Part shown: positions 10,765 to 23,167 of the stretch, piece by piece | How the letters are laid out: each line of letters begins with the position of its first letter | Position numbering within the stretch: the first letter of the stretch is position 1 | From: Chloroflexaceae bacterium | GTDB taxonomy: Bacteria; Chloroflexota; Chloroflexia; Chloroflexales; Chloroflexaceae | DNA: 50,112 bases | Direction: 5' to 3' | NCBI GenBank assembly: GCA_012031225.1 | Contig: JAAUTZ010000011.1 | Location: forward strand, 17,038-67,149 | The notes under the pieces: generated by a model | The model's input: only the letters and a program-made list of their open reading frames with translations | Told to the model about the DNA's origin: nothing | Database searches by the model: none | Position numbers and translations under genes: made by a program

Positions 10765-12437
10765 TCAGCCAGTGAGTGCGTGCAGGGCGGCAGCGTGGGC
10801 TTCGGCGTAGGTCAGCTCGCGCAGGCGGGCTTTCATGGGCGGGATCAAGGCAGGCGACATGCTCAGTTCCTGCACACCCATACCGGCGAGCAGCGGTGCA
10901 ACCGCAGGCACGCCGCCCAATTCACCGCACACCCCGATATGCTTGCCGGCTTGCTGGGCCGCTTGCACCGCTTGCTGGATCAGGCGCAGGACGGGCAGGG
11001 TATCGTGGGGGTAGCGGGCGGAGAGTTCGGCTTGCCCCCGATCTACGGCGAGCGTGTATTGGCTCAGGTCGTTCGTACCGATGCTGAAGAAATCGGCCTC
11101 ACGCGCCAACACATCCACAGTGACGGCGGCAGCGGGCGTTTCGATCATGATGCCGAGCGGCACATCGGTGCGGTGGGGCACGGCCTGCGCCTGCAACGTG
11201 GCGGCAGCCTGCCGAAGCTGGGCCCGGGCCCATGTAATGTCGCTCGGTAGCGCAACCATCGGCAGCATAATCCACACATCGCCGTGCTGGGCGGCCCGCA
11301 GGATCGCCCGCAGCTGCGCCTGAAACAGGTCGGTGTGCTGCATACATAGGCGTAGCCCCCGCACCCCCAAGAAGGGGTTCGCTTCGGGCGCAACATGCAG
11401 GTAGGGCAGGGGCTTGTCGCCGCCGATGTCAAGCGTGCGGATAATCACCGTGCGCCCCGCCATAATCTCTAGCGTCTCACCGTAGGCAGCATACTGCTCA
11501 TCCTCACTAGGGGCAGTCGTGCGCTCTAGAAACAGGAACTCGGTGCGAAACAAGCCGATCCCCTCTGCGCCATATGCTCGGGCCTGCTCCGCGATCGGCC
11601 GCGCCCGATGTTGGCCCACAGCCCTACGCCATGCCCATCGGCAAACTGGCCGGGCAGGTCGCGCAGGGTGGCATAATGGGCCTGTGCTGCCGCTTGGTCG
11701 GTGCGCTGTTGCTGGTACGTGGCCAGCGTTGCTGGCTCAGGATTGACAATCACGCTATGGGTGTTGCCATCTACAATCACGGGGGAGGCATTGGCCAGCT
11801 GCAACACTGCGTCACCCACGCCCACTACGGCGGGCAAGCCGAGCGAACGGGCGAGAATCGCGGTGTGCCCCGTATTGCCGCCATGCGCCGTGACGAATGC
11901 CACCGAGAGCTTGCGCTCATACAGTTCGGTAGTTTCGGCGGGGGTCAGGTCAGGCGCAACAATCACCGTATCGGGCGGCAGGTCGTGCAGGGGTGAGATG
12001 CTAGGGTACAGCACGGCATGGATCGCCTTGCCCACCGCGAGCATATCTGCCGCCCGCTCGCGCAGGTAGGGATCATCCAGCGCGGCGAGCATGTCGTGCA
12101 TCTGGGTCGCGGCGGACTGCACTGCTGCCGCCAGCGATTGCCCGGCTTCGAGCTGGGCTTGCACCAGTTCGGTGAGGGTTGGATCTTCGGCAAACATGGC
12201 TTGGGCTTCGAGAATGCCCGCTTCGTTGCTGTGACCGGCCGCCTGCAAACGTTCGGCCAGCTGTTCGAGGTTACGGGCGGCGGTGCTTTGGGCTTGCTCG
12301 AAGCGGGCAAACGCCGCCGCCGGGTCCGCATCGGCGGGGTGCGCGGACGCAGCCGGGGCAAGGTCCGGCGTGTACACAAAGACGCGCCCGATCAGGATGC
12401 CCGCTGCGCCGCCTACACCGCGATACTCCTGCTGCAT
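10765..12437 (-). pseudogene. ptsI: PTS Enzyme I (phosphoenolpyruvate-protein phosphotransferase), frameshifted
   Basis: Enzyme I autophosphorylates from PEP and passes the phosphate to HPr. The gene is split in two frames: the N-terminal part reads from 12437 to about 11595 and carries phospho-acceptor His191 in GGNTGHTAILARSLGLPAVVG; the C-terminal part reads from about 11600 to 10765 and holds GAEGIGLFRTEFLF, RTLDIGGDKPLPY and the GICGELG-like VCGELGG block of the PEP-binding domain. The frames meet at NIGR, where adding one base to the GGGCGCGG run restores a continuous product of about 557 residues. The ATG overlaps the ptsH stop by one base. Everything else in the gene looks intact, so this is either a recent lesion or a sequencing or assembly error. 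Confidence 0.9.
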
Positions 12438-12724
12438 CAGGATGCCTCCGTGCGCTCGCCGAAGTCATCCTGCACCAGTGCTATCAGCGCGGCGATGGCT
12501 TCATGCTCATCTTCGCCAGATGCCCGCAGGCGGATCTCGTGCCCGTGCTTCACGCCGATTTGGAGCAAGTTGAAGGGACTAACGGGCAATTCTTTCGTTT
12601 CTGGGCGGCTCAAATTTTGGATCGTGATCTTGCTCTTGAAAGCCCGCGCCTGTTGGAACAACTCTTTCGCAGGACGTGCATGCAACCCAACCGGATGGGT
12701 CACTGTCAATGTTACTTCTTGCAT
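12437..12724 (-). CDS. ptsH: HPr-like phosphocarrier protein
   Basis: 95 residues. Active-site His15 lies in VGLHARPAKELF, and a serine (Ser49) in PVSPFNLLQIGVKHG sits where Gram-positive HPr carries its regulatory Ser46. HPr takes phosphate from Enzyme I; here the likely acceptor is the adjacent DhaM. An upstream in-frame GTG at 12736 would add four residues; the ATG at 12724 gives the family-typical start MQEVTLTV. Located between dhaM (56-base gap) and ptsI (one-base overlap). No HPr kinase is in the window, so serine phosphorylation is only a possibility. Confidence 0.93.
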   Translation of the reverse strand: MQEVTLTVTHPVGLHARPAKELFQQARAFKSKITIQNLSRPETKELPVSPFNLLQIGVKHGHEIRLRASGEDEHEAIAALIALVQDDFGERTEAS

Positions 12725-12780
12725 TGTCTGGTACACTTTCGTTTACGCCACGCCACGTCGGATACCCCTGTGCGAGGGTG

Positions 12781-13167
12781 TTAATCGTGAACTTTGATCA
12801 GCTCCCGCGCTTGAACGGCAGCCGCATCGGTCTCTTCCAATGTTGCCTCAGCAGCGGCTTCGAGCGCGGCAAAATACGCGCCTTCAACAAGTGGTGCATT
12901 ACTTACGATGGCCTTCACGTCCGGCACAAGCTCAATCGCCGTCTCGGCACTAATCACCGCGCCGAGCAGGTCTACCAGAATCAGCGTGCCATCGGGCGAG
13001 GCGATTTGCTCTAGGATGTCGGCGATATGCTGCGGGTTGGTGCCAATCGAACCATCCATCGCCCCCCCCGCCGCCGCAATGACGACCTCGCCTGCGATCT
13101 GCTGCACAAACTCTTTGACACCCTCAGCGAGTTGTTTACTATGCGAAACTATCAATAGGCTGACCAT
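12781..13167 (-). CDS. dhaM: Dihydroxyacetone kinase phosphotransfer subunit DhaM (EIIA-man-like domain)
   Basis: 128 residues covering only the mannose-type EIIA domain. Phospho-acceptor His9 is in LLIVSHSKQLAEG; the AGGAMDGSIGT and LVDLLGA blocks are typical of DhaM. It transfers phosphate from HPr to the ADP bound on DhaL. E. coli DhaM is a fusion of EIIA, HPr and an Enzyme I-like domain, whereas here HPr and Enzyme I are separate genes immediately downstream. It starts 21 bases after the glpC stop and is clearly part of the same minus-strand operon. Confidence 0.93.
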   Translation of the reverse strand: MVSLLIVSHSKQLAEGVKEFVQQIAGEVVIAAAGGAMDGSIGTNPQHIADILEQIASPDGTLILVDLLGAVISAETAIELVPDVKAIVSNAPLVEGAYFAALEAAAEATLEETDAAAVQARELIKVHD

Positions 13168-13188
13168 ACTGAATTGTCCTACTTCTAT

Positions 13189-14451
13189 CTAGCCCCCCGT
13201 ACTTGGGGAAGCTAGCCCATACGCCCGATGCAGAATCTCAATCGGGTGCTTACTAGTTACGCCTGTGCCGTGCGTGATCTGCCAGCGACAGGTTTCTGAG
13301 TCGCACAGCGCAAGGTCGCTGCCACTGCGCTGCACAAAGTCAAACAGACCCGCGCCTACCGCCATGCCGATCTCGTACTTCTCACGTTTCACGCCGTAGG
13401 TTCCGGCAATGCCACAACACGGGCTGGTGCTTTCGAGCAGGCGCAAGCCCGGCACCATTTCGAGGATGTCGAGCGCAGGCCGCCCGATCCGATGGGCCCG
13501 CAATTGGCACGGCGGGTGGTAGGGCAGCGTCAGTGCGACGGGCCGGAAATTGGTGTCGAGCCGCCCCTGCTCATGCTCTAGGCGCAAGAACTCGAAAATG
13601 TCGTAGGTGTTCTCCGCCACCAGCTTGATCTCATCGCTGTGCAAGCCGAGCAGATCGGGGGCTTCTTCTTTCAGCGTCAGGGTGCAACTGGTGCTCGTGC
13701 CGACAATCGGGATGCCCTGCTTGACGTAGGGCAAGAGCTGCTGCACGTTGTATTCGTGATACTTCTGTGCGTCGGCAAAGGCCCCGTTGGAGAGCAACGG
13801 CAAGCCGCAGCACCCCTGCTTGGCAAGGATCACCTCAAAGCCGTTATGCTCCAGCACCTCAACCGCAATGCGCCCCAGCTCCGGCTCGTAGTAGTTGGTG
13901 GCACAGCCGTGAAAATACACCACCTTGCGCGTGCCTTTGGCAGTTGGAGCCGAGCGGTGCTTAAACCACGAGCGGAAGGTGTAGCGCGAGAAGGCCGGCA
14001 CCGGCGCGTGGCGGGCAATGCCGATCACCTGCTCCGTAATCATGCGGATCAGGCCATTGCTCAGGAACATATTCGCAATTGGCGCGAGCGGACTAGCCCC
14101 CATGCGCCCGATCCAATCCGAGTGCCCCAGCAGGCGATTGCGAAGCGACAAGCCCTTCTGGGCGACGATCTGGGCGCGGGCGCGGGCATTCAGTTCGGCA
14201 ATATGCACCCCCGTCGGGCAGACTTGATTGCACACGCGGCAACCGGAGCAGTAGTCTACCGATGCGTCCGGCGTATCCTGATCGGGGCGGCGGAACCGTT
14301 GCGCTTGTGGGCCGACGTACTTTGGGCCGGGGAACTTATCCGTAACGGCACTGACGGGGCATGCCGTCGTACAGATATTGCATTTGATACAGTGATCCAA
14401 CGATTGCTCAAGCGATAGCTCGATGTGGTCACTGGGGATGATAAACGTCAT
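13189..14451 (-). CDS. glpC: Anaerobic glycerol-3-phosphate dehydrogenase subunit C
   Basis: 420 residues. Two 4Fe-4S motifs near the N-terminus (CIKCNICTTACP and CSGCRVCNQVCP) are followed by two cysteine-rich CCG domains (GCATNYYEPE with QGCCGLPL, and YHPPCQLRAH with SPCCGIAGTYG). In GlpABC this subunit links the flavoprotein to the membrane quinone pool. No transmembrane helix is obvious, so attachment is probably through the CCG/FeS region as in the family. The start ATG is 35 bases after glpB. The order glpA-glpB-glpC matches the classical anaerobic operon. Confidence 0.94.
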   Translation of the reverse strand: MTFIIPSDHIELSLEQSLDHCIKCNICTTACPVSAVTDKFPGPKYVGPQAQRFRRPDQDTPDASVDYCSGCRVCNQVCPTGVHIAELNARARAQIVAQKGLSLRNRLLGHSDWIGRMGASPLAPIANMFLSNGLIRMITEQVIGIARHAPVPAFSRYTFRSWFKHRSAPTAKGTRKVVYFHGCATNYYEPELGRIAVEVLEHNGFEVILAKQGCCGLPLLSNGAFADAQKYHEYNVQQLLPYVKQGIPIVGTSTSCTLTLKEEAPDLLGLHSDEIKLVAENTYDIFEFLRLEHEQGRLDTNFRPVALTLPYHPPCQLRAHRIGRPALDILEMVPGLRLLESTSPCCGIAGTYGVKREKYEIGMAVGAGLFDFVQRSGSDLALCDSETCRWQITHGTGVTSKHPIEILHRAYGLASPSTGG

Positions 14452-14486
14452 ACGATGCGATCCTTCCTAGCATTCCTTAGCGGAGA

Positions 14487-15758
14487 TCAGGTTGCGAGTT
14501 GGGCTGGCAGCGATGTAGCTAACAGCGTGCCGACGTGCCAGCCAGTGGTGAGGGCTAGCCCCGAAACGGCCCGATCCTCAACCGGATCGCCAGCCAGCAG
14601 GGCCGAGCCAGCCACCATCACGTTGGCGTAGACGACATGCCCGGTGCTATCGAGCGGGCGGAACTGGTCATCGGTGGGCACACCGGCACTGAAGATCGGG
14701 TGGCCTTCGGTGTGCAAGAAGCGCGATGCAAACCACGCTTGGCGCGACTCGGGCGCGTGCAGGGGCAGGTTCAGGGCTGTTTCATGAACTGTGCCGCGAA
14801 AGTCGGTGCTGATACCGCCCCCCGCAATGCCGCCCGTCGCCAGCACACACGCGGCTACGTGGTGCCGCTGTTCACGGGCGGCGGCTTCGCTGAAGATATG
14901 CGTCAGCACGCCCTCTGCGCCTAGCCCACGCCGCACCTCTGAGCCAATCTGGATCCGCCCGCCCGCCACCGTAATCGCCTGATGAAAGATGTTCATCAGG
15001 CGCATGCCCGGCACCGAAGGCGGCAAGGTTGGGATTTCAAAGATCTGTGCGCCGCTGATCTGTTGCAGATCATTGACCACGCCGAGCGGATCACGCAAGC
15101 CGAGTACGGCCGGTAGCCCGATGCGGGTTGCCGTGCCGCGCAGGGTGCGGAGCTGCTGCCCTATCGCCTGCCGGAAGTTGGGCTGCTCAAACCACAGCGC
15201 AAAGGAGCGCGGGCTATAGTCGTGGCGTTGGTAGCCATCGGGCAGGGTCAGGTATACGCCGCGTGCAGGGATGTGCTGGGCTTGCAGATTGGCGGCAGCC
15301 ATCGGCGGGAAGAAGTCACGCAGTTCGTGGAAGCCGGCGATCAAGATCTCGCCCCCCAGCCGCACATCACCAGCGGCCATGGTTGCGGGGAGCAGCGCGG
15401 TAGGGCGCAGCGCACCGAGCGCAGTAGGCAACACTACGTTGCGCTCCAGCCCACCAACGTAGGGGTAGCCCGCCGCTTTGGTCAGGGTGCGAAAGCGATC
15501 TACTGCCGCCGCGATGCCGTCTAGCTCCATGCGGGCGTAGGGGTGTTCGGGCTGGGCTACAATCAGGTGCGTAAGGGCGGTATGCAGGGGCATGTTGGGG
15601 TAGCGGCGGCTAGCCAGCAGGTCAATCGTGCCGCCCGTCCAGTACGTTGTGCCGTAGCCCTTCGCAAGAAGCAGGGGACGCAAGCCCGCTTCAGCAAGGG
15701 CAAGCGCACTCATCAAGCCGGAGAGGCCGGCTCCGATTACAATCATGCGGCTCGTCAT
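14487..15758 (-). CDS. glpB: Anaerobic glycerol-3-phosphate dehydrogenase subunit B
   Basis: 423 residues. The N-terminus MIVIGAGLSGLMSALALAEAG is a dinucleotide-binding fold for flavin, followed by the GTTYWTGGTIDLLA block typical of GlpB. The C-terminus has NVMVAGSALLAGDPVEDRAVSGLALTTGWHVG. GlpB probably relays electrons between the GlpA flavin and the FeS subunit GlpC. Its ATG overlaps the glpA stop as ATGA, so the two are translationally coupled. No truncation is seen. Confidence 0.92.
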   Translation of the reverse strand: MTSRMIVIGAGLSGLMSALALAEAGLRPLLLAKGYGTTYWTGGTIDLLASRRYPNMPLHTALTHLIVAQPEHPYARMELDGIAAAVDRFRTLTKAAGYPYVGGLERNVVLPTALGALRPTALLPATMAAGDVRLGGEILIAGFHELRDFFPPMAAANLQAQHIPARGVYLTLPDGYQRHDYSPRSFALWFEQPNFRQAIGQQLRTLRGTATRIGLPAVLGLRDPLGVVNDLQQISGAQIFEIPTLPPSVPGMRLMNIFHQAITVAGGRIQIGSEVRRGLGAEGVLTHIFSEAAAREQRHHVAACVLATGGIAGGGISTDFRGTVHETALNLPLHAPESRQAWFASRFLHTEGHPIFSAGVPTDDQFRPLDSTGHVVYANVMVAGSALLAGDPVEDRAVSGLALTTGWHVGTLLATSLPAQLAT

Positions 15759-17446
15759 ACATGGTACTCCGTAGCAATTGCTGGATGGTGCGTGACCAGT
15801 TCGGGGTCTTCACCAGCCGCATCGGGCAGCAGATCAATACCGAGCGTATCGAGGTAGATCAACTGATCGAGACGGGCTTGGCGCAGTTGGTCGCCCCACA
15901 TAATCGCCGTCAAGCCTTTCCAGCGGGCCTGCAAGAAGTGGCGCAGCAGTTCGGTGCCGGGATCATTCGGCTCGGACGCATCCGGCTGATGCTGCCCGTT
16001 GCCATGCCCATTGTAGGGGACGTGAACATCATGATCGCGGGCAGTCCGCCATTCACTCCACAGGGCGGCGGCGCGGTAGGTGCAGAAGCCGCCTTGACAG
16101 GGGCCCATTCCAAGCCGGGTTTCGCGGCGGATGTCATCCAGATTGGCCGCACCGCTCTGCGCGATTGCGTCGAGTACCTGTTCGCGGGTCACCAGTTCGC
16201 ATTCGCAGATTAGCTCACCGAAGGCTTGGTGCTGCTCAACGTGAGCAAGATTGTGGCCCAGCCAGTAGAGCTGCTGCGCCTCGCCACCCGGAATGACTTC
16301 TTCGGCGGTGCGGCAGGGCGTAGTGTTGCCGAGCCGGGCCGCCACCACATTCACAATCTCCTCTGCCATCAGGCGGTAGGTTGTCCACTTGCCCCCGACA
16401 ATCGAGAGCAAGCCGTCTATCCCATCGCGCTTGGCGTGGTCAATCAAGACATAGGCCCGGCTCAGGTCGCGGTCATCGGTTACGCCCTCCTGCTTGTAGA
16501 GCGGGCGCACCCCCGCCCACGCCCGCAGCGCACGATAGCGGGTGAAACCGGGAATCAGCTTCTCGCCCTCTTCCATCAAGAAGGTGACTTCATCCGGCTC
16601 GATCCCGTACACATCGGGATCGGGCACGGCAATGTCGGTGGTGCCAATCACGGCAACGGTGTGGATCGGCACAATAATGTCGCCGTCGTCGGGCATCTTG
16701 CAGCGGTTGATCACGGTGTTGACCATGCGGTGGTTCATGGCAATCATTGTGCCTTTGCCGGGCACAACATCTACCCGCAGCCCGGCCAGCGCGGCGATTT
16801 TGCCCGCCCACGCCCCCGCCGCGTTTAGGATCCACGTCGCCCCAATCCGCTTGATCTCGCCCGTGCGCAAGTCCTCGACCTCAGCCGCCACCACGCGCTC
16901 ACCTTCGCGGATGAGGCCCTTGACAAAGTGGTAGTTGAGGATTTGTGCGCCATGTTCGCGGGCCGAGCGGGCAATGCCATACGCGGACATGAAGGAGTCG
17001 GCGGCTCCATCTTCGACTTCAAACACCCGCGAGATCTTCGGATTCAGGGCGGGTTCGCGGCGCAGAGCCTCGTCTACCGAAATTTCCTGCACGGGCACAT
17101 CGGTGGCGTGGCAGGCTTGCATAAACTTGTCGCCGAAATCGGGGTCATCCCACGGGGTCGTGACGAAGAAGCCGCCGGTAGCCTCGATATACTGCGGCAT
17201 AATCTTTCGCAGGATACGGTTTTCGTGGGCGCACTCGGTTGCTGATTGGGGATCTTTGATCACGTAGCGGCCCCCACTATGCAGCAAGCCGTGATAGCGG
17301 CCGGTTGTGCCGTGTGTCAAGTCGCCTTTCTCAACCAGTATAGTGGCAATGCCGCGCATTGCGAGGTCGCGGGCTGCGCCTAAGCCGGTGGCTCCGCCGC
17401 CAATGATCAGTACGTCGGTCTGCAAGAGTTGTTGCGTTCGTGTCAC
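15755..17446 (-). CDS. glpA: Anaerobic glycerol-3-phosphate dehydrogenase subunit A (FAD)
   Basis: 563 residues; oxidises glycerol-3-phosphate to DHAP. The FAD-binding motif is DVLIIGGGATGLGAARDLAMRG, followed by the GTTGRYHGLLHSGGRYV substrate region. The C-terminal third has a BFD-like [2Fe-2S] domain with cysteines in ICECELVTREQVL and GMGPCQGGFCTYR. The open frame extends upstream to 17542, but GTG at 17446 is chosen because GAGGAG stands eight bases before it and the product then starts just ahead of the FAD motif. glpK ends 123 bases upstream; a strong hairpin lies in that gap. Confidence 0.94.
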   Translation of the reverse strand: MTRTQQLLQTDVLIIGGGATGLGAARDLAMRGIATILVEKGDLTHGTTGRYHGLLHSGGRYVIKDPQSATECAHENRILRKIMPQYIEATGGFFVTTPWDDPDFGDKFMQACHATDVPVQEISVDEALRREPALNPKISRVFEVEDGAADSFMSAYGIARSAREHGAQILNYHFVKGLIREGERVVAAEVEDLRTGEIKRIGATWILNAAGAWAGKIAALAGLRVDVVPGKGTMIAMNHRMVNTVINRCKMPDDGDIIVPIHTVAVIGTTDIAVPDPDVYGIEPDEVTFLMEEGEKLIPGFTRYRALRAWAGVRPLYKQEGVTDDRDLSRAYVLIDHAKRDGIDGLLSIVGGKWTTYRLMAEEIVNVVAARLGNTTPCRTAEEVIPGGEAQQLYWLGHNLAHVEQHQAFGELICECELVTREQVLDAIAQSGAANLDDIRRETRLGMGPCQGGFCTYRAAALWSEWRTARDHDVHVPYNGHGNGQHQPDASEPNDPGTELLRHFLQARWKGLTAIMWGDQLRQARLDQLIYLDTLGIDLLPDAAGEDPELVTHHPAIATEYHV

Positions 17447-17518
17447 GCCAGCTACTCCTCTAGGCTTTCGCTTCCGTTCAGCTTGTAAGGTCGCGTGTCT
17501 GCTGGTGTAGCAGTAGCC

Positions 17519-17549
17519 GCCCTGTGTGCTGTCTGAGCGCACACAGGGC
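17519..17549 (-). promoter_or_regulatory. Hairpin between glpK and glpA
   Basis: A perfect 11-bp stem (GCCCTGTGTGC / GCACACAGGGC) with a 9-base loop. No T-run follows on the minus strand, so it is unlikely to be a simple terminator. It may be an RNA processing or stability element that sets the ratio of GlpK to GlpABC. Confidence 0.6.
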
Positions 17550-17569
17550 AGTGAACAGCAGGGGGATCG

Positions 17570-19069
17570 TTAGTCAATCCAATCAAAGGTGCGCGTGACG
17601 GCTTTCTTCCACATTCGCAGGCTGTCTTCGCGCTGCTCGGCGGGCATCTGCGGCTCCCACGTCTTATCCACGCCCCAGTTCTGGCGCAGTTCGTCAAGGT
17701 TCTGCCAGAAGCCCGTCGCCAAGCCTGCGGCATAGGCTGCACCGAGCGCGGTAGTCTCTGCCACTTTGGGGCGGATCACCGGCACACCGAGTACGTCGCT
17801 CTGGAACTGCATCAGCAGTTCATCCACCACCATGCCGCCATCGGCTTTGAGCGCGGTTAAGGCTACGCCGGAGTCCTGCTGCATTGCGTCGGCAACTTCG
17901 CGGGTTTGCCACGCGGTAGCTTCCAGCGCGGCGCGGGCGATGTGCCCCTTCGTGACGTAGCGCGTCAAGCCGACGATGACCCCGCGTGCGTTCGACTTCC
18001 AGTAGGGTGCGTACAGTCCAGAGAACGCGGGCACAAAGTAGACCCCGCCGTTATCCTTGACGGTTCTGGCAAGGGCTTCAACTTCGGCACTGCTGGTAAT
18101 CATGCCGAGATTATCGCGCAGCCACTGCACGAGCGCACCGGTAATCGCAATGCTCCCTTCGAGGGCATATACGGCTGGCGCATCGCCAAACTTGTAGGCG
18201 AGCGTGGTCAGCAAGCCGTGCTTGGATTGCACCAGCTTCGTACCCGTGTTCAGCAGCATAAAGCTACCTGTGCCATACGTGTTCTTCGCCTCGCCCACAT
18301 CGAAGCAGGTCTGCCCAACGAGCGCGGCTTGCTGATCGCCGAGAATACCGGCTACGGGAATGCCCTTCATCGGACCTTCGGCAACGTGCCCGTACACCTC
18401 GCTCGAAGCGCGAATGCTGGGCAGCATGGAGCGCGGCACATCCATGATTGCAAGGATCTCATCGTCCCAATCGAGCGTCTCAAGATTCATCAGCATCGTG
18501 CGGCTAGCATTGGTCACATCGGTGATATGCACCCCGCCGTTCACACCGCCCGTCAGATGCCACACGAGGAAGGTGTCAATGTTGCCGAACAGCGCATCGC
18601 CCGCTTCGGCGGCAGCCCGCAAGCCGGGCACATTGTCGAGTATCCAGCGGATCTTTGGCCCACTGAAGTAGGTAGCCAATGGCAAGCCCACTTTGGTGCG
18701 GAACCGATCCTGCCCACCCTCCTGCTCAAACTGCTCAACGAGCTTATCGGTGCGGGTATCTTGCCACACCAACGCATTGTGGTAAGGCTTGCCCGTAGAT
18801 TTGCTCCACACGACGGTAGTTTCACGCTGATTGGTGATGCCGAGTGCCGCCACATCGCTAGCATCAATGTTGCCCTTTTCGAGCGAGCGCAGCATTGTGG
18901 TGCGGGTGCGCTCCCAGATCTCCTCCGGGTCATGCTCCACCCAACCGGGCTGGGGGTAGATTTGCTCATGCTCGCGCTGGTCAAAACAGATCACGTCGCC
19001 CGCGTGATTAAAAATCATACAGCGGGTACTGGTTGTCCCTTGATCAATTGCAGCTACATACTTCGCCAT
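17570..19069 (-). CDS. glpK: Glycerol kinase
   Basis: 499 residues, the usual length for GlpK. FGGY-kinase signatures: [19 protein letters not shown] at the start (phosphate-binding loop), [26 protein letters not shown] (ATP-binding) and [20 protein letters not shown] near the end. It converts glycerol plus ATP to glycerol-3-phosphate, the substrate of GlpABC encoded next. A near-perfect AAGGAGGT stands before the ATG. It lies 95 bases after dhaL, in a gap with an imperfect inverted repeat. Confidence 0.96.
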
Positions 19070-19120
19070 ACTGACCTCCTTGTCTTATCTGTATGCAATA
19101 CGGTTTCAAAAAATTGTCAA

Positions 19121-19149
19121 GGTGATATGCCTGATTAAGGTATATCACT
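19121..19149 (-). promoter_or_regulatory. Imperfect inverted repeat between dhaL and glpK
   Basis: Arms GGTGATATGCCT (19121-19132) and AGGTATATCACT (19138-19149) pair over 10 of 12 positions around a 5-base centre. It could be an operator for an internal promoter or an intercistronic hairpin in the operon mRNA; the two cannot be told apart by reading. Confidence 0.5.
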
Positions 19150-19164
19150 GTTCATCCTAACAAG

Positions 19165-19824
19165 CTAACTTACCACCTCTGCTTGGGCGACAGCCTCTTG
19201 CAGCATCGCAAACAGGGCTTGGGCAATGTAGAAACTGGACGTTGCGCCGGGGTCTTGGAAGCCAATACTGCGCTCCCCCAAATAGGATGCCCGCCCTTTG
19301 GTGGCAAGCATCGGAATGGTTGCCTGCATGCCTGCTTCCACTGCCGCTAGGGCCCGTTCCGCCACTGCGAGAAATGGTTCGTCTGTGCCTTGCGCCGCTT
19401 TCAGGACATCTACGCCGGGCGCAATCGCATCAATCATTGTCTTTTCGCCGCGTTGCGCCTTGCCTCGCGTCTGGACACCTTCGAGCGCGGCTTCGAGCGC
19501 AGCCACGAGCTGCTCTGGATTAACGGTCTCTACCCCAGCCAGCACACCCGCGGCCCGAATAAATGCTGTGCCATAGAGCGGACCTGAAGCTCCACCTACG
19601 GTCGAGATCAACGTCATACCCGTTGTTTTCAGGATTGTGCCAACATCTTTATCGGCAACCGTAGGGAGTTTGCTGACCACTGCGGCAAAACCGCGATCCA
19701 AGTTGGTGCCGTGATCGGCATCGCCGATATTCGCATCCAACTGGGTAAGCTCCTCCCGCTGGGTATGCATGGTGTATGCGACCCGCTCAAGAAAGCGTAT
19801 GATATGTCCAGCAGTGATCAGCAT
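19165..19824 (-). CDS. dhaL: Dihydroxyacetone kinase ADP-binding subunit DhaL
   Basis: 219 residues. The nucleotide and Mg-binding loop is ANIGDADHGTNLDRG, and the TVGGASGPLYGTAF and YLGERSIGFQDPGATS blocks are typical of DhaL. It keeps a tightly bound ADP that is rephosphorylated by DhaM and passes phosphate to dihydroxyacetone held on DhaK. It sits 77 bases after dhaK, in the standard K-L order, though the DhaM gene is separated from it by glpKABC. Confidence 0.95.
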   Translation of the reverse strand: MLITAGHIIRFLERVAYTMHTQREELTQLDANIGDADHGTNLDRGFAAVVSKLPTVADKDVGTILKTTGMTLISTVGGASGPLYGTAFIRAAGVLAGVETVNPEQLVAALEAALEGVQTRGKAQRGEKTMIDAIAPGVDVLKAAQGTDEPFLAVAERALAAVEAGMQATIPMLATKGRASYLGERSIGFQDPGATSSFYIAQALFAMLQEAVAQAEVVS

Positions 19825-19901
19825 ATGCTCGCGTCCCTTTCATCCTCACGAGGTGGGCTGTCTGCATGTGCCCACCCCAAGCCACTCCAACCGATGATCC
19901 T

Positions 19902-20903
19902 CTATGCGCCCCAGCGCAACGCAGGCGTATGCACCGGCGCGTCCCACAGGCGGGTGAGTTCATCATCCAGCTTCAGCAGCGTGATCGAAGCTCCCGCCAT
20001 CTCCAATGAGGTAATGTAATCGCCAATCAGGTGGCGGGCAATCGTGATGCCTTTGGCCGCACAGATCTTGGCAAGCTCATTGTACACGATATAGAGTTCA
20101 ATCAGGGGCGTGCCACCCATGCCATTTACGAATGCCAGCACATTGTCGCCGCTCGCAAAGGGCAGGTCAGTCAAGATTGCCTCAGCCATAATCTCGACAA
20201 TCTCACGCGCCGACTTGAGTTCCATGCGCGTGCGGCCCGGCTCACCGTGAATGCCAACCCCGATCTCCATCTCATTCTCACCCAGATCGAAGGTCGGCTT
20301 GCCATTCGCCGGCACGATACACGAAGTCAGGGCCATGCCCATCGAACGCCCGTGATCGTTGACTTTGGTGGCAATGCGGGTACACTCGGCGAGGTTGGCA
20401 CCGCCTTCAGCTGCCGCCCCGACAATCTTCTCCATCAGGACGGTCGTGCCCACACCGCGCCGCCCAGCCGTCCATGTGCTGTCCTTCACAGCTACGTCAT
20501 CATTGACGATAACTGCCGCCACCTCGATCCCTTCGGCTTGGGCTAGCTCCGCCGCCAGCTCAAAGTTCATCACGTCGCCGGTATAGTTCTTGACAATGTG
20601 CAATACACCTGCCCCGCCATTCACGGCTTTGGTTGCTTCCAGCATCTGGTCAGGAACTGGCGAGGTAAAGATTGCACCGGGGCACGCCGCATCCAGCATA
20701 CCTTTGCCCACAAAGCCGCCGTGCATCGGCTCGTGGCCACTGCCACCGCCAGAGATAATCCCGACTTTGCCCGCGATTGGGGCATCCGCCCGCACCACGA
20801 AATCGGGATCGTAATGCACCGCAATCAGATCTGCGTGAGCGGCAGCCATGCCTTCCAGTGACTCTTTGACTACATCTTCGACGGTGTTGATCAGTTTCTT
20901 CAT
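19902..20903 (-). CDS. dhaK: Dihydroxyacetone kinase substrate-binding subunit DhaK
   Basis: 333 residues. His219 in [11 protein letters not shown] is the residue that binds dihydroxyacetone covalently as a hemiaminal. The [19 protein letters not shown] and [13 protein letters not shown] motifs are diagnostic. With DhaL and DhaM it makes DHAP from dihydroxyacetone using PEP rather than ATP. The start ATG is preceded by GAGGAG. glpF ends 65 bases upstream in the same operon. No dihydroxyacetone-producing glycerol dehydrogenase is visible in the window. Confidence 0.96.
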
Positions 20904-20968: not shown

Positions 20969-21700
20969 TTAGCTTGCGTACAGAATGGATGCAAGGATGC
21001 CCGCAAGTGCCCCACCAATGATTGGACCCACCACCGGAATCCACGAGTAGGACCAATCCGAGTCGCCTTTACCGGGGATCGGCAGGATCTGGTGGGCAAT
21101 ACGCGGCGCAAGGTCACGCGCCGGATTGATCGCGTAGCCGGTCGGGCCACCCAAGCTCAAGCCAATGCCCCACACCAACGAAGCGACCAGATAGGGGCCC
21201 AAGCCACTGGCCGGCGAGCCGCCGGTTGCACCGGTGCTGAAGATAGCAAACACGACAAACACCAGTACAAACGTCCCAATCGCCTCGCTGATCAAGTTCG
21301 TGCCAGTGTTGCGGATAGCCGGACCGGTGCTGAAACACGCCAGCTTCAAGCCCGGATCGTCAGTCTCGCCCCAGTGTGGCAGGTAGTGCAGATAGACCAA
21401 GATTGCGCCGATGAAGGCCCCGACAAACTGCCCGGCAATCTCGGCGAGGGCATTGTTAATCGGATTGACCCCGCGCACCAAGCCACCGATAGAGACCGCC
21501 GGATTGAGCGCAGCTCCGGGGCTACCTGCCGCCTGCGCCACAAACACGCCCGACATCACCGCGAAGGCCCAGCCTGCGGTGATCACAATCCAGCCTGAAT
21601 TCTGCGCTTTCGATTTGTTCAGCAACACTGCCGCGACCACACCATTACCCAGCAGGACTAAGATCATTGTGCCGAGCAATTCGCCCATGAAAACACCCAT
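20969..21700 (-). CDS. glpF: Glycerol facilitator (aquaglyceroporin)
   Basis: 243 residues with six membrane helices and the two pore motifs ALNPAVS and AINPARD, each a half-helix NPA. The Arg after the second NPA fits the selectivity filter. The protein lets glycerol enter by diffusion, and GlpK then traps it. The open frame begins with GTG at 21706; ATG at 21700 is preferred since GAGG is seven bases before it. It is the first gene of the ten-gene operon, preceded by an unusually long AT-rich leader. Confidence 0.95.
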   Translation of the reverse strand: MGVFMGELLGTMILVLLGNGVVAAVLLNKSKAQNSGWIVITAGWAFAVMSGVFVAQAAGSPGAALNPAVSIGGLVRGVNPINNALAEIAGQFVGAFIGAILVYLHYLPHWGETDDPGLKLACFSTGPAIRNTGTNLISEAIGTFVLVFVVFAIFSTGATGGSPASGLGPYLVASLVWGIGLSLGGPTGYAINPARDLAPRIAHQILPIPGKGDSDWSYSWIPVVGPIIGGALAGILASILYAS

Positions 21701-22109
21701 TATCACACCTCACTCTGTTTCAAATCAACGGTTCAACACATGTCCCGACCCAAAAAGCAACCAAGCAATAAAAACATTCCCTGTAATCTGCTCGTACTCC
21801 TTTTCTACTGTGTCGGCATTGCTTCACCACAGAATGGGAAGGAAACTACCGCTAGTTTCGATCCGAATCGTAGATGAGGTTCAGTTAAGAGACAATGAGG
21901 ATGTGCGCGTAGTGCAGAAGAACGTATGAGAAGCCATTGTTCATGTACAATGTCTCTGCCATCAAGTAGCGTTGCACCCTTGCACGATCCACGATATTCA
22001 CCATAGAATATCAATGACCTAATTCCATAACTGTCACTTGGCATTGCAGCGTGCCAAATTAACTCATCTGTAGAAGTTTGTGACTGTTAAGAACTGACTA
22101 CTTATACCT
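21701..22109 (-). promoter_or_regulatory. Long palindrome-rich leader of the glp-dha-pts operon
   Basis: About 400 bases between the predicted transcription start (near 22103) and glpF, with no convincing gene. It holds four inverted repeats: TTGGCA-N8-TGCCAA (22038-22057), GATATTC-N6-GAATATC (21993-22012), CATTGT-N6-ACAATG (21935-21952) and GAAACTA-N4-TAGTTTC (21842-21859). The first three look like protein operators; the last is a compact hairpin with a 4-base loop. No known riboswitch fold was recognised. The tract is much AT-richer than the genes around it. Confidence 0.6.
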
Positions 22110-22138
22110 AGCATATCATACCTAGCATTGCCTGTCAA
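22110..22138 (-). promoter_or_regulatory. Promoter of the glp-dha-pts operon
   Basis: On the minus strand TTGACA (22138-22133), exactly 17 bases, then TATGCT (22115-22110), with TGA before the -10 as an extended element. The spacer and -10 contain a direct repeat ATGCTAGGTAT, two copies three bases apart. Transcription should start near 22103. Confidence 0.75.
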
Positions 22139-22334
22139 TGAAAACAACTACCATCCTATGGCAGCAGTTCTTTCTTAAAATAGTTTGCCATGTAATTGTT
22201 TGAAATATCACAATCGCTGCTACTGCTTATGTTCCCACCTCGCCGATTTGTTCCATTCAACAGCGTGATGCTCCTGTGAAAAGACCGATACATCAGACTC
22301 CTATCGCGGTGCAGTGCGTTTCGGCAAAATCTGG

Positions 22335-22340
22335 TATGCT
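22335..22340 (+). promoter_or_regulatory. Possible extended -10 of the ADP-ribosylglycohydrolase-like gene
   Basis: TGG-TATGCT lies 48 bases before the ATG at 22388. There is no good -35, so an extended -10 promoter is inferred. The stretch between this site and the divergent glp promoter (about 195 bases) shows nothing else that I recognise. Confidence 0.4.
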
Positions 22341-22387
22341 TGTGTGCAGGAAACTACACTGAAGAAAAGAAGAAAGGAACCGAATGC

Positions 22388-23167
22388 ATGCGTGGAATCA
22401 TCATTGGCGATCTGCTCGGCAGTAGCGCACACGCGAGCCTTGCGGCAGCCCAAGCTGCGGCACCGCTCGCGCCATCGGCGATCACGCCGCTCAGTGGCGC
22501 CACCGCCACCGCCCTGCTCCGCAATGTGAGCTACGGCTACGCCTTGCGCCACGCCGTCCGCACGGACCCCCTGCTACAGGCGGAGGCGCAGCTTGTAGCC
22601 GGGCTAGCCCAGCCGGAGCAACGCATCAGCCGGACGGATCTGCTCCCGCCAATCTGGGCTAGCCTAAGCGGATGGGCATTTGGATCGTTGAGCGATGTCG
22701 AGGATGAAGCCGAAGCGATTGCCGCTGCCACCCACAGCCACCCCGAAACGCTGCGTGCGGCCCGTGCTACGGCGGCGTGCGTGCTGCTGTTGCGGAGCGG
22801 AGCCAGTGCCAAAGACGTGCGCCGCTATCTGGAAGGCGTAGGCTACCGCTCCGCCTCGCTACTGGAACGGATGGGGCAGTTTGTGGGTGCAGCCGCGCCG
22901 CCCACGCTTGATGCCGCGCCACTGCTGCCGCTTGCCACCCAGATCGTGCTAAGCCAGCCCAGCTTTGTCGCCGCCCTTGATGCGGCACTGGCGGCGGCTC
23001 CTGCACCTAGCCCACTGCGGGCATCGCTCGCGGGACTGGTGGGCGCACTCGCTGAGGCCCGCGAGCAAGATCTGCCTGATCCGGCCCTTGCGCTCTTTGC
23101 CCATGCCGTTGATGCAGCAACGCAAGCGTGCGTGCAGCTATTTGCCGAGCAGTATCAACCTACCTAG
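22388..23167 (+). CDS. ADP-ribosylglycohydrolase-like protein with degenerate metal site
   Basis: 259 residues. The N-terminus MRGIIIGDLLGSS matches the start of bacterial ADP-ribosylglycohydrolase (ARH) proteins, and THSHPETLRAARATAACVLLLRSGASAKDVRRYLE matches the helix pair that follows the ARH substrate loop. The family's metal-binding FTDDT is here LSGATATA, and the C-terminal TDTDT-type motif is not seen, so hydrolase activity is doubtful. It may be a binding or scaffolding relative, or a decaying gene. The ATG at 22388 has AAAGGA upstream. Its neighbours are the divergent glp operon and a small convergent gene that ends 18 bases downstream. Confidence 0.7.
   Translation: MRGIIIGDLLGSSAHASLAAAQAAAPLAPSAITPLSGATATALLRNVSYGYALRHAVRTDPLLQAEAQLVAGLAQPEQRISRTDLLPPIWASLSGWAFGSLSDVEDEAEAIAAATHSHPETLRAARATAACVLLLRSGASAKDVRRYLEGVGYRSASLLERMGQFVGAAAPPTLDAAPLLPLATQIVLSQPSFVAALDAALAAAPAPSPLRASLAGLVGALAEAREQDLPDPALALFAHAVDAATQACVQLFAEQYQPT

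Follow-up and report, generated by a model that had tools for sequence, protein, structure and literature searches.

The window, a stretch of 50,112 nucleotides from a green filamentous bacterium of the Chloroflexaceae, carries on its minus strand a glp/dha operon in the order glpF-dhaK-dhaL-glpK-glpA-glpB-glpC-dhaM-HPr-EI, with intergenic gaps of -4 to 95 bp (Table 1; the names of glpB, glpC, dhaM, HPr, and EI were given by eye from the sequence). The ATG at 21700 is likely the real start of glpF, with GAGTGAGGTG as its SD sequence. At the end of the operon, the PTS enzyme I gene (10765-12437) is interrupted by what looks like a frameshift near 11526-11619, from either sequencing error or decay. 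Inspection by eye revealed no regulator gene adjoining the operon.

Table 1. Features of the glp/dha operon and of the region upstream of glpF
Feature	Positions	Strand	Sequence	Remarks
Remaining operon genes: dhaK, dhaL, glpK, glpA, glpB, glpC, dhaM-like, HPr, PTS EI	10765-20903	-		
glpF (MIP family)	20969-21706	-		
Untranslated leader, about 403 nt	21701-22103	-		Start site placed from the promoter
Tight hairpin, GAAACTA-GCGG-TAGTTTC	21842-21859	-	GAAACTAGCGGTAGTTTC	Pairing broken in congener
Site 3, CATTGT-N6-ACAATG	21935-21952	-	CATTGTACATGAACAATG; congener CATTGTCTAGAGACAATG	
TGCA-AGGG-TGCA element	21973-21984	-		Overlooked in the preliminary description
Site 2, GATATTC-N6-GAATATC	21993-22012	-	GATATTCTATGGTGAATATC; congener GATATTCGCTGGCGAATACC	
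Site 1, TTGGCA-N8-TGCCAA	22038-22057	-	TTGGCACGCTGCAATGCCAA; congener CTGGCAAGCTGCAATACCAG	
glp operon promoter, TTGACA-17-TATGCT, extended -10 TG	22110-22138	-		93% identical in congener
Dyad upstream of the promoter	22196-22213	-	TTGTGATATTTCAAACAA	Rex- or CRP-like in appearance
Divergent gene, weak ADP-ribosylglycohydrolase similarity	22385-23167	+		PF03747, E 0.0026, below cut-off

A DNA search of 61 genomes identified an alignable upstream region in one of the 60 relatives, the congener G001 (locus L002). The footprint therefore compares two genomes only, that of the window (G000) and this congener; a contig scan for further congeners gave only distant GlpF genes, with no closer leader. 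The TTGACA/TATGCT promoter named in a preliminary description of the locus is present at its reported place, and hexamers, spacing, and distance to glpF are all unchanged in the congener. Identity between the two species is 93% over the promoter and 54% over the 56 bp upstream. Because the promoter is conserved at the same distance, a leader of about 400 nt is well supported, its start being placed from the promoter rather than from a mapped 5' end. The leader measures 407 and 408 nt in the window species and the congener, respectively, and its identity between them is 71.7%, versus 60.5% at 4-fold sites of glpF. We rejected the possibility of a leader peptide, since the 39-aa frame of the window is lost in the congener (alignment read by eye), and also that of a mobile repeat, since the genome has no significant second copy of the leader by DNA search.

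Upstream of the promoter, the region of the dyad is 95% identical to the congener over 20 bp (22195-22214). The dyad resembles the Rex site TTGTGAAW4TTCACAA (PMC2883068). Rex control was rejected: the motif is not enriched genome-wide, though a Rex gene is present in the genome. Ahead of the divergent gene, a separate block (22300-22339) shares 92.5% identity with the congener, more than most of the leader does, and contains a plus-strand extended -10 (TGGTATGCT).

Searching for inverted repeats with perfect arms no shorter than 6 and spacers of 4 to 8, we found exactly four in the 409-nt leader, compared to a mean of 0.45 in 1000 dinucleotide shuffles (p 0.001). They are the four palindromes originally described, all at the reported positions and with the same architecture (three repeats with centers of 6-8 bases and one hairpin with a 4-base loop), and their arms are dissimilar, as had been noted. 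At least four palindromes occur in just one of 249 equal-sized segments of the window (0.4%), and that segment overlaps the leader. The congener leader is also enriched, with 3 palindromes versus 0.47 expected (p 0.015).

Conservation differs from one palindrome to the next. Site 3 keeps all 12 arm letters and one of its six central letters, and site 2 keeps 13 of 14 in the arms and three of six in the center; arm spacing is unchanged, and the two sites lie 59 bp apart in both species. Pooling them, arms (25/26 kept) differ from centers (4/12) with a Fisher p of 8e-5, and for sites 1 to 3 together the p is 0.006, both values being indicative because the sites were picked after inspection of the alignment. 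Site 1 keeps nine of 12 arm letters and seven of eight central ones, with one pair compensated and another broken. The tight hairpin is 61% identical, and its pairing is lost in the congener. Thus, of the conservation in relatives that was anticipated for the palindromes, sites 2 and 3 bear it out in this congener, while the tight hairpin does not and site 1, which is half kept, largely does not. The combination expected of a dimer operator, with arms kept as letters, a free center, and fixed spacing, is found at sites 2 and 3 in the two species. As judged from these two genomes, the leader is probably a real, partly conserved cis-regulatory region, beyond a chance pattern, in which two of the four palindromes probably represent real control sites.

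Sites 2 and 3 are most likely dyad-symmetric control sites, and we slightly favor DNA operators over RNA hairpins. A protein dimer on DNA is favored because the arms are kept as letters, not as pairs, with fixed spacing. We suggest that transcription of the glp/dha operon begins at a conserved promoter of the sigma-70 type, some 400 nt upstream of glpF, and that sites 2 and 3 are putative operators recognized by one or two dimeric DNA-binding proteins, which would block or modulate the elongating RNA polymerase. These sites would have taken over control in a lineage without GlpR, GlpP, and the DhaR-like activator of the family. We infer that the elements act as DNA and not as RNA, that their effect is repression, and that the gene for the factor lies elsewhere. 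This reading, with operators of dimeric proteins modulating the elongating polymerase in replacement of lost regulators, is our leading one but a tentative one, to which we give somewhat less than even confidence. It is favored also because folding of the whole leader is ordinary and site 3 is weak as a hairpin, and because a palindrome in the glpF leader of genus g10, which we take to be Chloroflexus, shows parallel arm conservation (GCATTGC-N5-GCAATGC, with both arms kept in all five species and the center changing). It is weakened because the comparison has only one congener and the operon has no adjoining regulator gene, and because local hairpins are predicted with high probability for all four palindromes. 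Moreover, sites 2 and 3 are centered about 100 and 160 nt past the predicted start, and +100 and +160 are unusual positions for repressor sites.

The number of copies in the genome also counts against operators. Site 2 has a single full match in G000, and site 3 a single full match in each of G000 and G001, unlike a regulon site. Site 2 had been called an almost ideal dimer operator; its sequence does fit, but the genome contains no further full match to it, and our search recovered no DeoR-family protein. We examined the one-mismatch copies of sites 2 and 3 shared with G001 and discarded them, as they occur within coding sequence or close to other promoters and share no theme. The motif of site 1 has a second exact copy in both genomes, within the coding sequence of an isopentenyl-diphosphate isomerase-like gene (named by eye), which we attribute to chance.

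Alternatively, the palindromes could be hairpins in a regulatory 5' UTR, a diverged version of the family's long glpF leaders, that controls either the translation of the operon mRNA or its stability. We consider this rather unlikely, though several observations favor it: every element lies inside the transcript, the single-copy nature of the sites favors RNA as well, and all four palindromes fold as locally stable hairpins in the window leader (probability mostly 0.85 or more), site 1 having its compensatory change. On the proposal that the palindromes reflect several regulators or a structured RNA, the predictions diverge: local hairpins form, but folding of the whole leader is not unusual when compared to shuffles (z -0.8 in the window, -0.2 in the congener; two-sequence alifold z -1.4). 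Site 3 alone is a weak hairpin of -3.5 kcal/mol, and sites 2 and 3 conserve the letters of their arms, not covarying pairs. A terminator scan found no terminator-like site 3' of the promoter in either the window or the congener; the only one detected is upstream of the promoter. Sequestration of the SD by a leader segment is predicted in both species, but its pairing partners differ between them and the duplex is at chance level (p 0.2), so we rejected it. A search of the window against Rfam 15 at the gathering score matched only a tRNA elsewhere.

Long glpF leaders recur across the family, which speaks for RNA. In other Chloroflexaceae they span about 300-500 nt behind a TTGACG-type promoter, differ in sequence from the window, and include a hairpin, GARAGGRGGTG, and ATCAAKGNYGAT. 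By eye, the SD-like GARAGGRGGTG sits mid-leader in genera g4, g6, g10, g14, g17, and others, with no usefully placed start codon. The Chloroflexus leader is conserved in five species, with an alifold z of -4.3 versus column shuffles. Its core (L010-L014; GAAAGGAGGTGCGC...GATTCG, 170-183 nt) begins about 230 nt and ends about 50 nt upstream of glpF; in it, 3 pairs have changed on both sides, versus 0.8 in shuffles. The Chloroflexus leader matched nothing in Rfam, even at E 1, and our literature search found no report on it; we regard this strongly conserved, structured leader as a candidate new regulatory RNA. The window leader is like that of Chloroflexus in preceding the same gene with a similar length, and in having a palindrome, about 270 nt upstream of glpF in Chloroflexus, that is nearly unique per genome. 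It differs in sequence and structure: a covariance model of the Chloroflexus leader (R1) matches neither the window (L001) nor the leaders of other genera, a point against the RNA reading.

At locus L003, whose GlpF is among the two closest (83%), the leader differs again and is strongly structured (z -3.5), in keeping with an RNA function. Within L003 (1098-1500) we noticed by eye a terminator-like hairpin with a T run after it (GGTATGGTGTCGTATTTTTTT) and, overlapping it, an alternative hairpin TTATGTATAACGATACATAA; these could possibly form an attenuator, although the terminator scan did not detect the terminator-like hairpin. The window, congener, L003, and Chloroflexus leaders have in common TGCA-N3/4-TGCA at -266 to -280, the sole gapped word motif shared by the four at a similar position; it was found post hoc, and at least one such shared word occurs in 1.5% of shuffles.

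It is also conceivable, if doubtful, that the leader is mostly neutral, a slowly diverging spacer with four chance palindromes, two of which survived through a short divergence. Its 72% identity is only moderately above that of 4-fold sites, two of the four palindromes decay, and the comparison is limited to two genomes. The palindrome count, its enrichment in the congener as well, and the contrast between arms and centers at sites 2 and 3 all argue against neutrality.

Glycerol operons are textbook cases of GlpR, GlpP, or DhaR control. The C-terminal domain of the DeoR family (PF00455), recovered in 10 of 14 control genomes, has 0 matches in G000 and one weak match below cut-off in G001. GlpP (PF04309) is above cut-off in none of the 61 genomes and in 3 controls. 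A DhaR-like protein has no match in G000 or G001 and strong matches in g4, g6, g10, and g14. Since the two genomes are 97% and 88% complete, respectively, the absence of these regulators is strong but not final; the lack of a nearby glpR or dhaR gene, noted in the preliminary description, thus extends to DeoR-type GlpR, GlpP, and DhaR-like homologs across G000.

The locus can be compared with each of these systems. With proteobacterial GlpR operators it shares palindromic sites at a glpF-headed operon and a loose similarity of the site 2 arms; it differs in that no DeoR-family regulator was found, the sites are far downstream of the start, and each has one full-match copy. As before the glp genes of Bacillus under GlpP antitermination, a long untranslated leader is present, but GlpP was not found and the leader has no terminator-like hairpin. 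DhaR/AcoR-like control of dha genes by HTH_8 activators has its likeness only in other Chloroflexaceae, where a DhaR-like HTH_8 activator gene flanks glpF (g4, g6, some Chloroflexus) and, in several members, the region upstream of the promoter has GTTTCAAT/TTGAAAC dyads; in the window genus the gene was not found and the dyads are absent. While site 2 resembles the E. coli GlpR sites, which have the form ATGTTCG-N4-CGAACAT, the idea that the palindromes are operators of GlpR or DhaR is largely refuted by these searches and very improbable.

A different control must exist, because GlpR, GlpP, and DhaR were not found while a leader with conserved dyads persists. Most speculatively, the glpF operons of Chloroflexaceae could be governed by long 5' leaders that evolve fast and whose RNA senses glycerol, glycerol-3-phosphate, or dihydroxyacetone. 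On this view, which we regard as improbable, the structured leader of Chloroflexus would be a regulatory RNA not yet described, and that of the window a diverged counterpart that operates with none of GlpR, GlpP, and DhaR. Two things make the locus interesting, the missing regulators and the Chloroflexus leader RNA: a genus with no detected GlpR, GlpP, or DhaR has an operon that nevertheless retains a long leader with conserved dyads, and the structured, conserved Chloroflexus glpF leader, with no match in Rfam, provides a concrete RNA for testing.
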